DNA of 14,196 nucleotides from an uncultured Sphingomonadales bacterium (GTDB lineage Bacteria; Pseudomonadota; Alphaproteobacteria; Sphingomonadales; Sphingomonadaceae): contig CAITOD010000096.1 in the NCBI GenBank assembly GCA_903893935.1, positions 1 through 14,196 on the forward strand, read 5' to 3'. Each line of letters begins with the position of its first letter. The first letter of the stretch is position 1. A model generated the notes under the pieces. That model saw only the letters and a list, made by a program, of their open reading frames with translations, searched no databases and had not been told where the DNA came from. Shown piece by piece: positions 10,582 to 14,196 of the stretch. A program made the translations under genes and the position numbers.

Positions 10582-10994
10582 GCGGGGCCGACGCGGTGAT
10601 CGCGCGGGCGCTGAGCCTGGTGAGCGAGAGCTTCATCACCGCGACCGGTCCCGGCGGGCAGAATGTCAACAAAGTCGCCACTGCGGTGCAATTGCGCGTC
10701 AATGTCTATGCGCTGCGGCTGAGCCCCGAAGTGTTCGCGCGGCTGAAAACGCTGGCGGGCAGCCGGATGACCGCGGCGGGCGACGTGGTGCTGACCGCGC
10801 GCCGCTTCCGCACCCAGGAAGCCAACCGCGCCGATGCGCGCGAACGGCTCTCCGCGCTGTTGCGCGAAGCGCTGACTTTGCCCGAGAAGCGCGCCCGGAC
10901 CCGGCTCAACCGCGTGGGCAAAGTCGAACGGCTGGCGGGCAAGAAGATCCGCAGCACGATCAAGGCCGGACGGGGCAAAGTGCAGTTCGATTGA
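10578..10994 (+). CDS. arfB: Alternative ribosome-rescue peptidyl-tRNA hydrolase ArfB (YaeJ)
   Basis: This is a 138-residue release-factor-like protein that frees ribosomes stalled on mRNAs without a stop codon, by hydrolysing the peptidyl-tRNA. The catalytic GGQ is in TATGPGGQNVNKVATAV (21-37, Gln28). It lacks the stop-codon recognition domains of RF1/RF2. The C-terminal tail (about 104-138) is strongly basic, with RTRLNRVGKVERLAGKK, as needed to occupy the empty mRNA channel. Length and layout match ArfB exactly. The GTG start at 10578 overlaps the pseudouridine synthase stop (GTGA), so it is expressed by coupling. It is the last gene of the pabB operon and is followed by an inverted repeat. 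Confidence 0.93.
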   Translation: MSGADAVIARALSLVSESFITATGPGGQNVNKVATAVQLRVNVYALRLSPEVFARLKTLAGSRMTAAGDVVLTARRFRTQEANRADARERLSALLREALTLPEKRARTRLNRVGKVERLAGKKIRSTIKAGRGKVQFD

Positions 10995-11019
10995 GGCACT
11001 TCTATCATCCCCCCTACCT

Positions 11020-11052
11020 CCGTTCGTGCTTCGACCGGCTCAGCACGAACGG
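11020..11052. repeat. Perfect inverted repeat (REP-like) between convergent genes
   Basis: CCGTTCGTGCT (11020-11030) and AGCACGAACGG (11042-11052) form perfect 11-base arms around an 11-base loop. The loop plus inner arms contain the tcgaccggctcag core that I recognise from widely dispersed palindromic repeats in sphingomonads and some other proteobacteria. C- and G-runs on both sides (11009-11014 and 11051-11056) can lengthen the stem. It lies between arfB (plus strand, ends 10994) and a lipoprotein gene (minus strand, ends 11090), so it may also end both transcripts. Only one copy is present in this window. Confidence 0.6.
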
Positions 11053-11089
11053 GGGGTGGAGACAGGAATTGGGGGGCAGGCACCCGCGC

Positions 11090-11290
11090 TCAATGCGCCG
11101 CGCCGGTCGCGCCCGCGACCGCATCGGCGGGCACGGTGGCGTCGACCAGCGGCGGGGCAGGGCGCTTGTCCAGTTCGGCGGCGGCGGCGTCCAGCTGGCG
11201 GGCTTCGCCTTTGGTGACGCCGCCGGGGCCTGGGTCGCTGTCGCTTGAACAGGCGGCAAGCAGCAGCGTGAGGATCAGCGCAAGGCGCAT
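11090..11290 (-). CDS. Small predicted lipoprotein (66 aa)
   Basis: The N-terminus MRLALILTLLLAAC is a lipoprotein signal peptide with lipobox LAAC and Cys15 as the lipidated residue. The mature part is about 52 residues, with SSDSDPGPGGVTKGEARQLD, then a short helix-forming LDAAAAELDKRP and an Ala/Pro/Val tail. It resembles small uncharacterised lipoproteins of sphingomonads; I know no function for it. ATG 11290 lies one base after the TGA of the upstream gene (TGA, C, ATG on the minus strand), so the two are translationally coupled. Frames are open further upstream, but only this start yields the signal peptide. Asp at the second position after Cys, the usual inner-membrane retention signal, is absent (Ser follows), so outer-membrane sorting is possible. 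Confidence 0.75.
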   Translation of the reverse strand: MRLALILTLLLAACSSDSDPGPGGVTKGEARQLDAAAAELDKRPAPPLVDATVPADAVAGATGAAH

Positions 11291-11291
11291 G

Positions 11292-11612
11292 TCACTGGCT
11301 CTTGCTGCTGTCCCCGCCGCTCTGTTGTTCGGCTTCGGCGGCGGCGGCGCGCGCGGCTTGCGCGACCGAGGCGGCGTCTTCGGCGTCGTTGGTCGCCGCG
11401 ATGCGCGCCGATTGCGCGGCATTCGAGGCGTCGGCATCGGGGTCGCGCGCGGGCGGCGGTGCGGCAAGCGAGGGCGGACCGGCGGGCAAGTCGGCCGCGG
11501 GCATTTCGACGCTGCCGGGCGTTGCATCATCGCTCGCATGGTCGTGGTGGCCGCAGCCGGTCAGCAGCATCAGGGCACCGGCCAGCAAGGCGGCGGGGGC
11601 AAATTTGGTCAT
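11292..11612 (-). CDS. Predicted lipoprotein (106 aa), Ala-rich
   Basis: This is an unrecognised small lipoprotein. MTKFAPAALLAGALMLLTGC is a signal peptide with lipobox LTGC and Cys20 as the lipid site. A His-containing GHHDH follows directly, then a Pro/Ala/Asp-rich linker (about 28-62), then an Ala/Glu-rich segment (about 63-97) likely to form a helix, and a polar end. The start is supported by GAGGA five bases before the ATG and by a well-formed promoter about 40 bases upstream. The low-complexity composition makes function prediction impossible. The His cluster could bind metal but this is speculation. It is the first gene of a two-lipoprotein unit, transcribed away from the methionine operon. 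Confidence 0.72.
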   Translation of the reverse strand: MTKFAPAALLAGALMLLTGCGHHDHASDDATPGSVEMPAADLPAGPPSLAAPPPARDPDADASNAAQSARIAATNDAEDAASVAQAARAAAAEAEQQSGGDSSKSQ

Positions 11613-11653
11613 CGAAGTCCTCGTGCAAGGCGCGCCATCGCGCGTGACGCCCG

Positions 11654-11682
11654 TTCTAGCCAGCACCCGGCGCGATGTCCAA
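11654..11682 (-). promoter_or_regulatory. Promoter of the lipoprotein pair (minus strand)
   Basis: On the minus strand TTGGAC (11682-11677) and CTAGAA (11659-11654) are separated by exactly 17 bases, close to a sigma-70 consensus. Transcription would begin near 11647, giving a leader of about 35 bases with a Shine-Dalgarno GAGGA before ATG 11612. It is divergent from the methionine operon promoter and separated from its nearest operator by about 30 bases. Confidence 0.55.
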
Positions 11683-11710
11683 CAGGCTTGCAGAGGGACA
11701 ATCGTATGTT

Positions 11711-11732
11711 GATATAACAAAAGCTTTATATC
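11711..11732. promoter_or_regulatory. Second, weaker operator-like site upstream of the methionine operon
   Basis: GATATAA (11711-11717) and TTATATC (11726-11732) are perfect 7-base arms with an 8-base centre. Aligned with the central 22 bases of the main palindrome, 15 positions agree, including ATATAA and TTTATAT. The centres of the two sites are 30 bases apart, near three helical turns, so both could be bound on one face of the DNA. I read it as a second binding site for the same regulator. Confidence 0.55.
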
Positions 11733-11734
11733 AC

Positions 11735-11764
11735 TTGCATCATATAAAGATGTCTTTATATGAT
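11735..11764 (+). promoter_or_regulatory. Promoter of the regulator-metF-metH operon
   Basis: TTGCAT (11735-11740) and TATGAT (11759-11764) are 18 bases apart. An alternative -10, TATATG at 11757-11762, gives 16. The main palindrome occupies exactly this interval, so a bound repressor would block RNA polymerase. The predicted transcription start falls at about 11771, the first base of the start codon. A weaker upstream promoter (TTGCAG 11688-11693 with GATATA 11711-11716, spacer 17) is also possible. Confidence 0.55.
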
Positions 11765-11766
11765 GC
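11737..11766. promoter_or_regulatory. Perfect 30-bp palindromic operator
   Basis: GCATCATATAAAGA (11737-11750) and TCTTTATATGATGC (11753-11766) are perfect 14-base arms around TG. It is sharply AT-rich against GC-rich surroundings and ends 5 bases before the regulator's start codon. An ATAAAGA/TCTTTAT core is, as I recall it, the kind of site described for SahR, the ArsR-type regulator of the methionine/SAM cycle in Proteobacteria. The placement implies autorepression. Confidence 0.8.
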
Positions 11767-11770
11767 TCAC

Positions 11771-12757
11771 ATGAGCACTGTGATCCCCCTGCTTGAAACG
11801 CTGCGCGCGCTGGCCGATCCCACGCGCCTGCGGATCATGCGGCTGCTCGCCAGCATGGAACTGGCGGTGGGTGAACTGGCGCAAGTGCTCGGGCAAAGCC
11901 AGCCGCGCGTGTCGCGCCATGTCAAGATCCTGTGCGATGCGCGGCTGGCCGAACGCCGCCGCGAAGGCGCCTGGGTGTTCCTCCACGCGGCCGCCGCACC
12001 TTGCGGCGCCGGGCCGCTGGTCGATGCGGTGACCGCGCTGCTCGCCACCGCCGAACAGGCCGATCCGGCGTTTGCCGGGCAATGCGCCGAAGACCGCGCG
12101 CATCTCGATGCGATCCGCGCCGCGCGCCAGGCCCATGCGCAGGACTGGTTCGCGCGCCATGCCGCCGATTGGGACGAATTGCGCAGCCTGCATATCGCCG
12201 ACGGCCCGGTCGAAGCCGCCCTGGCCGAGCTGCTCCATGCGGCGGCGGGCGAGGGGCTTGGCCGTCTGCTTGATGTCGGCACCGGCACCGGGCGCATGGC
12301 CGAACTGTTCGCCGATCACGCCAGCCAGGTCACCGCGCTCGACCGCAGCCCCGAAATGCTGCGGCTCGCGCGCACCCGGCTGCAGCATCTGCCCGCGGGC
12401 AAAGTCGAGCTGGTGCAGGGCGATTTCGCGCAATTGCCGTTTGGCGCGGCGAGCTTTGATACCGTGCTGTTCCACCAGGTGCTGCACTTTGCGCAAGCGC
12501 CCGAAGCGGTGCTGGCCGAAGCCGCGCGCGTCACCGCGCCCGGCGGGCGAATCGCGATTGTCGATTTTGCCGCGCACGATCGCGAGGATTTGCGCACCCA
12601 GTATGCGCATGCGCGGCTCGGCTTTGCCGATGCGCAGATCGCCGCGCTGTTCGCCGATGCCGGGTTCGTGCCGCTGGCCGAGCGCGCGCTGGCGGGCAAG
12701 GAACTGATTGTGAAGCTGTGGACCGCCGAGCGCCGGCCCGGTCGCCAGCAGGCCTGA
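11771..12757 (+). CDS. ArsR-family regulator fused to a SAM-dependent methyltransferase domain (SahR-like)
   Basis: This is a 328-residue two-domain protein. Residues 1-75 are an ArsR winged helix (LLETLRALADPTRLRIMRLL, then recognition region GQSQPRVSRHVKIL at 41-54). The ELCVCDL-type metal site is absent (ELAVGELAQVL instead), so it is not a classical metal sensor. Residues about 110-315 form a class I methyltransferase: motif I LLDVGTGTGRMAEL (166-179), acidic ribose-binding Asp191 in ALDRSPEML, QGDFAQLPF (217-224) and a UbiE-like FHQVLHF and APGGRIAIVDF. ATG 11771 gives the normal ArsR N-terminus; upstream in-frame ATGs at 11750 and 11675 lie in or before the operator. There is no Shine-Dalgarno sequence. 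It heads an operon with metF and metH. I infer that it represses this operon and that its methyltransferase domain reads SAM or SAH; whether it methylates anything is unknown. Confidence 0.85.
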   Translation: MSTVIPLLETLRALADPTRLRIMRLLASMELAVGELAQVLGQSQPRVSRHVKILCDARLAERRREGAWVFLHAAAAPCGAGPLVDAVTALLATAEQADPAFAGQCAEDRAHLDAIRAARQAHAQDWFARHAADWDELRSLHIADGPVEAALAELLHAAAGEGLGRLLDVGTGTGRMAELFADHASQVTALDRSPEMLRLARTRLQHLPAGKVELVQGDFAQLPFGAASFDTVLFHQVLHFAQAPEAVLAEAARVTAPGGRIAIVDFAAHDREDLRTQYAHARLGFADAQIAALFADAGFVPLAERALAGKELIVKLWTAERRPGRQQA

Positions 12758-12763
12758 CATGTT

Positions 12764-13678
12764 ATGAGTATGCCAATGACCACGCCAGACAGCACCGATG
12801 CCCCGCTGTTCGCCGGATTGGCGGGCGATATCGCCGTCAGTTTCGAATTCTTCCCTCCCAAGACCGAGGCGATGGAAGCACAATTGTGGGATGCGATCGC
12901 AGCACTGGCCCCGCTCGATCCGGCCTTTGTTTCGGTTACCTATGGCGCGGGCGGTTCCACGCGCGAACGCACGCATGCGACGGTGGCGCGGCTGGTGCGC
13001 GAAACCGCGCTGGTGCCCGCAGCACACCTTACATGCGTCGGCGCCAGCCGGGGCGAAATCGGTGAAATTGCCGACCGCTATTGGGAAGCCGGCGTGCGGC
13101 ATATCGTCGCCTTGCGCGGCGATCCGCCGCCCGCAGCCGGGGGGCGTTTCGTGCCGCATCCCGATGGCTATGCCAGTGCCGCCGAACTGGTCGCCGGGCT
13201 TGCCGCGCGCCACCCGTTCGAACTGTCGGTCGCGGCCTATCCCGAAAGCCATCCCGAATCGCCCAGCTTCGAAGCCGATCTTGATAATCTCAAGCGCAAG
13301 CTCGATGCCGGGGCGACGCGCGCGATCACGCAGTTCTTCTTTTCGGCCGAAACCTGGTTCCGCTTTGTCGATCGCGCGCTGGCGGCGGGGATCACCGCGC
13401 CGATCCTGCCCGGCATTATGCCGGTCACCAATCTCGCGGGCATTCGGCGCATGGGCGGCAACACCACGGTACCGGCCTGGCTCGATGCGATGTTCGCCGG
13501 GCTCGATGATCGCCCGGGCCCGCGCGCGCTGGTCGCAGCCGTTGTCGCAGCCGACTTGTGCCGCCGTCTCTACGAAGGCGGGGTGCGCGATTTCCACTTC
13601 TACACATTGAACCGCGCCGAGCAGGCTTATGCGATTTGCCAGCTGCTCGGCCTGCGGCCGAGGGAAACCCAGGAATGA
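12764..13678 (+). CDS. metF: Methylenetetrahydrofolate reductase
   Basis: This 304-residue flavoprotein reduces 5,10-methylene-tetrahydrofolate to 5-methyl-tetrahydrofolate, the methyl donor for methionine synthase. Motifs include SFEFFPPKT with Glu28, the folate-contacting [16 protein letters not shown] (55-70), LRGDPP with Asp120 (FAD/folate contact), AYPESHPES (158-166), ITQFFFSAE (188-196) and a C-terminal [11 protein letters not shown]. Length matches bacterial MetF, which lacks the eukaryotic regulatory domain. It starts 6 bases after the regulator stop with no clear Shine-Dalgarno sequence. In-frame ATGs at 12770 and 12776 are equally possible, and the residues before about 14 are poorly conserved. 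The end overlaps the metH start by 4 bases (ATGA). It is presumably controlled with the regulator gene by the palindrome upstream. Confidence 0.95.
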
Positions 13679-14196
13679 CTTTGACCCCCAGCGCCGCGCG
13701 CGCCGCTTTCGTCGCGGCGGCCCATGAGCGCATCCTGATCACCGACGGCGCGTTCGGCACCGAAATCCAGCGCTGCGGCCTTGCCGAAGCTGATTACGCC
13801 GGCACGCTCGGGCTTTCGCACGATCAGAAAGGCAACAACGACATTCTCGTGCTGACCGCGCCGCACGTGATCGAGGCGATCCACCGCGCCTATTTCGCCG
13901 CCGGCGCCGATCTTGCCGAAACCAACACCTTTTCGGCCAATCGCATCAGCCAGGCCGATTACGGCGCCGAACATCTGGTGCGCGAGATCAATCTGGCGAG
14001 CGCGCGGCTGGCGCGCAAAGTGGCCGACGAATTTACCGCCGCTGACGGCCGCCCGCGCTTTGTCGCCGGCGCGATCGGCCCGACCCACAAGACGCTGTCG
14101 CTCAGCCCCGATGTCAACGATCCCGGCTTTCGCGAAATCAGCTGGGACCACCTGGTCGATGTCTATGCCGAACAGGCGCATGCGCTGGTCGAAGGC
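13675..14196 (+). CDS. metH: Methionine synthase, homocysteine-binding N-terminal domain (partial at window end)
   Basis: This is the first 174 residues of an open frame that runs off the window. It matches the homocysteine-binding barrel at the N-terminus of cobalamin-dependent methionine synthase: [51 protein letters not shown], then [17 protein letters not shown]. The last two segments are MetH-like rather than BhmT-like. The zinc-binding cysteines would lie beyond the end. ATG 13675 overlaps the metF stop, with GAGGGA at 13660-13665 nine bases upstream. In sphingomonads I recall this domain often being a separate gene of about 350 residues, followed by a second gene with the pterin- and cobalamin-binding domains. 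Which form is present here cannot be seen. Confidence 0.92.

Follow-up and report, generated by a model that had tools for sequence, protein, structure and literature searches.

The window, i.e. the whole stretch of 14,196 nt analysed here, carries near its end the genes sahR, metF and metH, preceded by a palindromic region in which two operators and a promoter are predicted (Table 1). The sahR product joins an N-terminal ArsR-type HTH (PF01022, 48.6 bits; NF033788, 80.4 bits against a cut-off of 55) to a C-terminal SAM-methyltransferase-like domain (PF08241, 95.3 bits, residues 167-263), and an intact nucleotide motif, LLDVGTGTG, is present; among the 60 of 66 matches to solved structures that were listed, each spans one half of the protein only. 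This is the layout of SahR, in agreement with the SahR-type regulator that a preliminary description of this DNA had proposed beside the palindrome. The methionine-cycle operon postulated there was also recovered, since profile matches identify the genes as sahR-metF-metH, and this order is kept in relatives: metF is next after sahR in 78/78 and metH follows in 74/74 of those with enough sequence (best 80 of 189). The assignment of metH, which lies in the ORF 13558-14196, is based on TIGR02082 and NF007024 matches from residue 47 or 56. On the minus strand, divergent to sahR, are two small lipoprotein-like genes (11292-11612 and 11090-11290); a Pfam search with both gave no match, and small lipoprotein-like gene relatives are found in a good part of the 80 related loci (best 80 of 189).

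Table 1. Genes and predicted regulatory elements of the sahR region, in window coordinates
Feature	Position	Strand	Remarks
Distal SahR operator, predicted	11712..11731	.	30 bp upstream of the proximal operator; one Novosphingobium clade
Inferred -35 element TTGCAT	11735..11740	+	In the gap between the operators; fixed TTG/TTT offset before the core
Proximal SahR operator, predicted	11742..11761	.	20-bp core ATATAAAG-N4-CTTTATAT; identical 20-mer before ahcY in the same genome
Inferred -10 element TATATG	11757..11762	+	Within the proximal operator's right arm; spacer of 16 bp
Predicted transcription start	11769..11771	+	Coincides with the sahR ATG or lies within about 3 nt of it; from -10 placement and no Shine-Dalgarno
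sahR	11771..12757	+	ArsR-type HTH and SAM-methyltransferase-like domain, 328 aa
metF, methylenetetrahydrofolate reductase	12764..13678	+	TIGR00676 over its cut-off
metH, methionine synthase, 5' part	13696..14196	+	Cut by the window end; start codon approximate

The sahR start is located 5 nt past a palindrome whose 14-nt arms (11737-11750 and 11753-11766), as noticed earlier, are 100% complementary around a 2-nt centre. It is the longest perfect inverted repeat of the window when spacers of 0-10 nt are allowed; maxima in 40 dinucleotide shuffles of the window ranged from 8 to 13. The term "perfect 30-bp palindrome" used in the preliminary description is thus correct for the window sequence, but it overstates the conserved unit, since the outer pairs are not kept across loci. 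This was seen in a comparison of 81 sahR loci, namely the window and 80 named relatives (best 80 of 189), in which pairs 3 to 10 from the core centre are complementary in 70 to 81 of the loci, the two central pairs in just 31 and 49, and, outside the core, the nearest pair in 45 and those beyond it in 34 at most. Further consecutive pairs outside the 20-bp core number 0 or 1 in 73 of the 81 upstream regions, while the window has 5. Because pairing falls off in this way outside the core, the conserved SahR operator would measure 20 bp, perhaps 22 bp, and a literal operator of 30 bp was discarded. The SahR motif given in the accessible part of PMC4239095 is likewise a 20-bp palindrome. In the whole window, only 11742-11761 and 11712-11731 match the 20-bp operator consensus at 13/20 or better.

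With up to 3 mismatches, the core is present in the genome of origin at the proximal site, at the distal site (3 mismatches) and as an identical 20-mer on another contig (C451:3547-3566), and nowhere else. The latter copy is located 76 nt before the start of ahcY, which runs off the contig, and has a Redoxin gene on its other side. The intergenic region concerned (L034 1501-1520, corresponding to G000:C451:3547-3566) is divergent, and the Redoxin (peroxiredoxin-like) gene could be co-regulated by SahR. No metK was found in the search of this genome, which is 82% complete; the core therein marks sahR-metF-metH and ahcY, and metK only in relatives.

Upstream of sahR, a core of at least 14/20 is present in 81/81 loci (window and best 80 of 189), while 6/6 further genomes of the genus and 23/23 SahR-bearing genomes from other families of the order reach at least 18/20. 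Within the family it was found at 14/20 or better in 122 of 129 genomes, 7 being without it; SahR is encoded in 131 genomes besides the own one, and the 129 are those counted after setting aside G096, G108 and the second copies in G132 and G197. These last two genomes (loci L314 and L340) have two SahR-like genes each, of which the first copy is without a core. In two other loci (L376 of G101 and L378 of G179) a diverged palindrome-like element such as ATATAAGCGATTGCTTATAT replaces the usual core, perhaps indicating a shifted specificity. In part of the family (L306, L309, L313, L320 and L326) the core is followed, on the side of its right arm and ahead of the start codon, by an extra half-site resembling CCTTATAT or CTTTATAT, an 8- to 9-bp direct repeat of the half-site.

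The scan of related genomes upstream of SAM-cycle genes, suggested in the preliminary description, locates the core at sahR-metF-metH, at ahcY and, in the genus, at metK, so that the palindrome is conserved before orthologous operons. In the genus, one core is found before ahcY (at least 17/20) in 35/36 genomes examined, own included, and before metK (at least 16/20) in 26/27; the sole exception for both genes is G019, which has neither SahR nor operator and where metK adjoins ahcY. In other families of the order the ahcY core (at least 16/20) is present in 22/23, the exception, G060, being also without SahR; the metK core (at least 15/20) is found in just 15/23, and metK adjoins ahcY directly downstream in 4 of the 8 misses. 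For ahcY the sample consisted of 35 genus relatives (all 36 but G020) and 23 other genomes (all 24 but G051), for metK of 27 among the 36 genus relatives and 23 other genomes (all 24 but G043).

The operator is restricted to SahR-bearing genomes, save for two drafts. Of 19 genomes lacking a complete SahR match, 17 do not contain the pattern ATAAAG-N4-CTTTAT, several of the 17 showing weak matches to one SahR domain alone. The two exceptions are the draft genomes G112, whose sahR is split over two contig pieces, one of them beside a site, and G081, which gives no SahR match at 1e-8 and has two sites, one at 4 bases from the edge of a contig, the other preceding what by eye resembles an ahcY start. 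All of 30 SahR-bearing genomes, chosen by hand and not at random, have 1 to 4 sites; the reversed control pattern gave one match in 3 of the 30. One match, in G003 (L401), extends into the end of a different reading frame and was set aside.

A strict consensus promoter scan found no promoter at the locus; the -35/-10 pair of Table 1 was inferred because of its conserved placement. In 77 of the 81 loci the script located, at a fixed distance upstream of the core, a TTG or TTT that gives a spacer of 16 or 17 bp to the TATAT of the right arm; the remaining four (L045, L047, L048 and L054), in which an additional TTG borders the core, fit this spacer by eye. An ATG or GTG is found 5-13 nt past the core in 78/81 loci (window and best 80 of 189), and only 3 of these 78 sahR starts show a Shine-Dalgarno-like pairing of -5 kcal/mol or better, compared to 16 of 23 ahcY starts, the control start having been found in 23 of the 25 loci given. 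At the family level, 103 of the 122 genomes with a core have their first in-frame start 7-13 nt downstream of it. Outside the family but within the order, 22 of 23 genomes have the core starting 36-94 nt upstream of the residue-1-aligned position, and G050 has it at 20 nt; therefore most of them have room for a leader. From the placement of the -10 element and the lack of a Shine-Dalgarno, the sahR mRNA, which would be autorepressed, is probably leaderless. In Zymomonas mobilis, a member of the same order, leaderless transcripts account for 119 of 2,675 TSS-gene pairs, according to the portion of PMC7566282 available.

The second site that the preliminary description had placed at 11711-11732 is genuine, at 11712-11731; its perfect arms measure 8 nt (11710-11717 and 11726-11733), one more than the 7 claimed. 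The match to the core at 15 of 22 positions holds on recount by eye, and the proposed distance of 30 bases is exact, the distal site starting 30 bp before the core at 11742-11761, in register. A second site of at least 14/20 is present in 41 of the 81 sahR loci (window and best 80 of 189 relatives); elsewhere in these 80 loci, away from sahR and the stretch shortly before it, none of 410,988 positions reaches 14/20. All the 41 loci fall inside one clade of 45 on the SahR protein tree (support 99/92), and the 4 clade loci without it are L061, L077 and L082, which group together, and L069. If gained once in the clade, the site would then have been lost about twice; the tree alone cannot separate gain from loss. 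A second site at 14/20 or better within 300 nt is absent in 129 other genomes of the family. Likewise, no second core was found upstream of ahcY and metK in the Novosphingobium genomes examined, the next best match being 11/20 or less; in the genus, the double site is only at sahR-metF-metH, while ahcY and metK have a single one. Outside the family, a second site (15/20) lies 16 bp upstream of the core in G040 (L189) and G052 (L190), and an extra site (16/20) 16 bp downstream of it in G057 (L194); thus extra sites exist elsewhere, arranged differently from the 30-bp one. In these three upstream regions the SahR-like cores overlap, sharing an ATAT end at the 16-bp spacing.

Taken together, these data make it quite probable that the palindrome is an autoregulatory SahR operator, with repression relieved by S-adenosylhomocysteine (SAH), a leaderless start and a second site specific to one clade. 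Novichkov et al. (2014; cited in PMC8877191) reportedly described the SahR regulon, with Desulfovibrio SahR released from DNA by SAH. In the mechanism proposed here, SahR, presumably a dimer, would act as an ArsR-family repressor with a SAM-methyltransferase-like sensor domain. Bound to the proximal 20-bp site it would probably cover the promoter spacer and the -10 element, and at the distal 20-bp site probably the stretch just upstream of the -35 element; since the -35 would then lie in a 10-bp gap between two bound dimers, RNA polymerase may be kept off. Upon accumulation, SAH would fill the sensor domain and SahR would leave the DNA, allowing sahR-metF-metH to be transcribed together with ahcY and, in relatives, metK, both from single-site promoters; the sahR transcript would probably start at or within about 3 nt of its own ATG. 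The second site most likely strengthens or steepens the repression of the sahR-metF-metH promoter alone. Some observations count against this explanation as a whole, namely the empty promoter scan, the 7 coreless loci among 129 of the family, the metK core in only 15/23 outside the genus and the failure to find metK in this incomplete genome; as to the second site, so do its 26-bp variants, out of phase with 30 bp, and its absence from 4 of 45 clade loci.

The distance between the two sites is 30 bp in 39 of the 41 loci and 26 bp in the other two (L057 and L071). Among the 41 loci, the tree requires 2 changes in spacing and 9 in the core-to-start distance, which argues for constraint on the spacing, and the exact 30 bp fits cooperative binding, while 26 bp would place the dimers on about opposite faces of the helix; as the two distances are more than a third of a helical turn apart, strict phasing does not hold in all loci. 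A more elaborate reading, in which the double operator would produce a cooperative, sharp shut-off of sahR-metF-metH against a gradual SAH response of the single-site ahcY and metK, with the leaderless message limiting SahR translation, is offered only tentatively and is, as a whole, rather unlikely. The alternative is that the two sites are bound independently, the distal one giving a second chance of occupancy or being a weakly used spare, with no cooperativity. This is a serious possibility, if somewhat short of an even chance: the 26-bp spacing is tolerated, the site has been lost in part of the clade, and the distal site matches the consensus less well (on average 14.5 of 16 outer positions, compared to 15.5 for the proximal sites of the same loci); however, the near-constant 30 bp and its few changes on the tree speak against independent binding.

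It is improbable that the distal site acts on the divergent small lipoprotein-like gene, whose start is at 11612 on the minus strand, instead of on sahR. This start is about 100 bp from the site, and relatives of the second small gene accompany 32/40 double-site loci and 8/40 single-site ones; however, the four clade loci devoid of the distal site (L061, L069, L077 and L082) are still accompanied by relatives of one small gene or of both, as are some single-site loci from outside the clade, and it is the distance to the proximal site, with the sahR -35 in between, that is kept. The distribution of the small genes thus weakens this reading. Control by another ArsR-type or unrelated regulator, with sahR a mere neighbour, has a very low probability: the sites track the presence of SahR across genomes and mark exactly the SahR targets published in PMC4239095, as far as its accessible part lists them. 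Still less credible is an RNA hairpin (attenuator or riboswitch) in a sahR leader, which the perfect 14-bp stem might suggest, since the half-sites are kept as sequence with poor pairing at the centre (31 and 49 of 81), the core recurs 76 nt before ahcY on another contig and the predicted transcription start is downstream of the palindrome; the RNA element was rejected also because an Rfam search of 10900-12900 gave four matches, all below gathering scores, and a terminator search at the locus found none.

The regulator, its motif and its regulon are already known. According to the accessible part of PMC4239095 (Leyn et al. 2014), the core regulon of SahR comprises sahR, ahcY, metH, metH2, metF and metK; the system described here has in common with it the regulator layout, the 20-bp palindromic operator and the targets sahR, metF, metH, ahcY and metK. 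It differs from what that part reports in the second operator 30 bp upstream, at one promoter and in one clade, and in the probable leaderless sahR. The same source describes SamR of Xanthomonadales, a distant homologue that is also linked to metH and has a palindromic operator; however, the SamR site is a 24-bp palindrome with the common consensus ATC-N10-GAT, a pattern to which the core sequence does not conform, and ahcY is outside the SamR regulon there and inside the regulon here. In Ensifer aridi (PMC8877191, available part) a SahR motif is similarly predicted in the sahR promoter and upstream of ahcY, metH and metK, and the expression of sahR is highest in the sahR mutant, i.e. it is autoregulated; unlike here, a double site or a leaderless start is not mentioned in the text available.

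A comparable arrangement is the acuR-acuI-dddL operon of Rhodobacter sphaeroides, for which the accessible part of PMC3017554 reports that the repressor gene is the first one, that the operator overlaps the promoter and that the mRNA is leaderless, with no Shine-Dalgarno. The sahR locus shares this layout, with the repressor gene first, an operator overlapping the predicted promoter, no Shine-Dalgarno and a start codon a few nt after the inferred -10. Differently from SahR, AcuR belongs to the TetR family, has acrylate as co-inducer and is described with one inverted repeat; moreover, its leaderless start was determined by 5' RACE, while that of sahR is deduced from sequence. No mention of a double SahR operator or of a leaderless sahR was found in the literature searched, the RegPrecise lists being outside this search. 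The combination of double operator and leaderless layout thus looks like an undescribed variant, although RegPrecise may list both sites.

The locus provides a previously unannotated promoter tied, with strong comparative support, to a known metabolic sensor. It also represents a natural experiment: within one cell, the same repressor appears to act on a promoter with two sites and on promoters with one, and the extra site has been lost or displaced in sister species. This makes it possible to test how steep repression evolves and how leaderless repressor messages are used in Sphingomonadaceae; if the cooperative reading is true, the clade, including the loci that lost the site and the two with a 26-bp spacing, would constitute a natural series for the evolution of steepness in a metabolic repressor.
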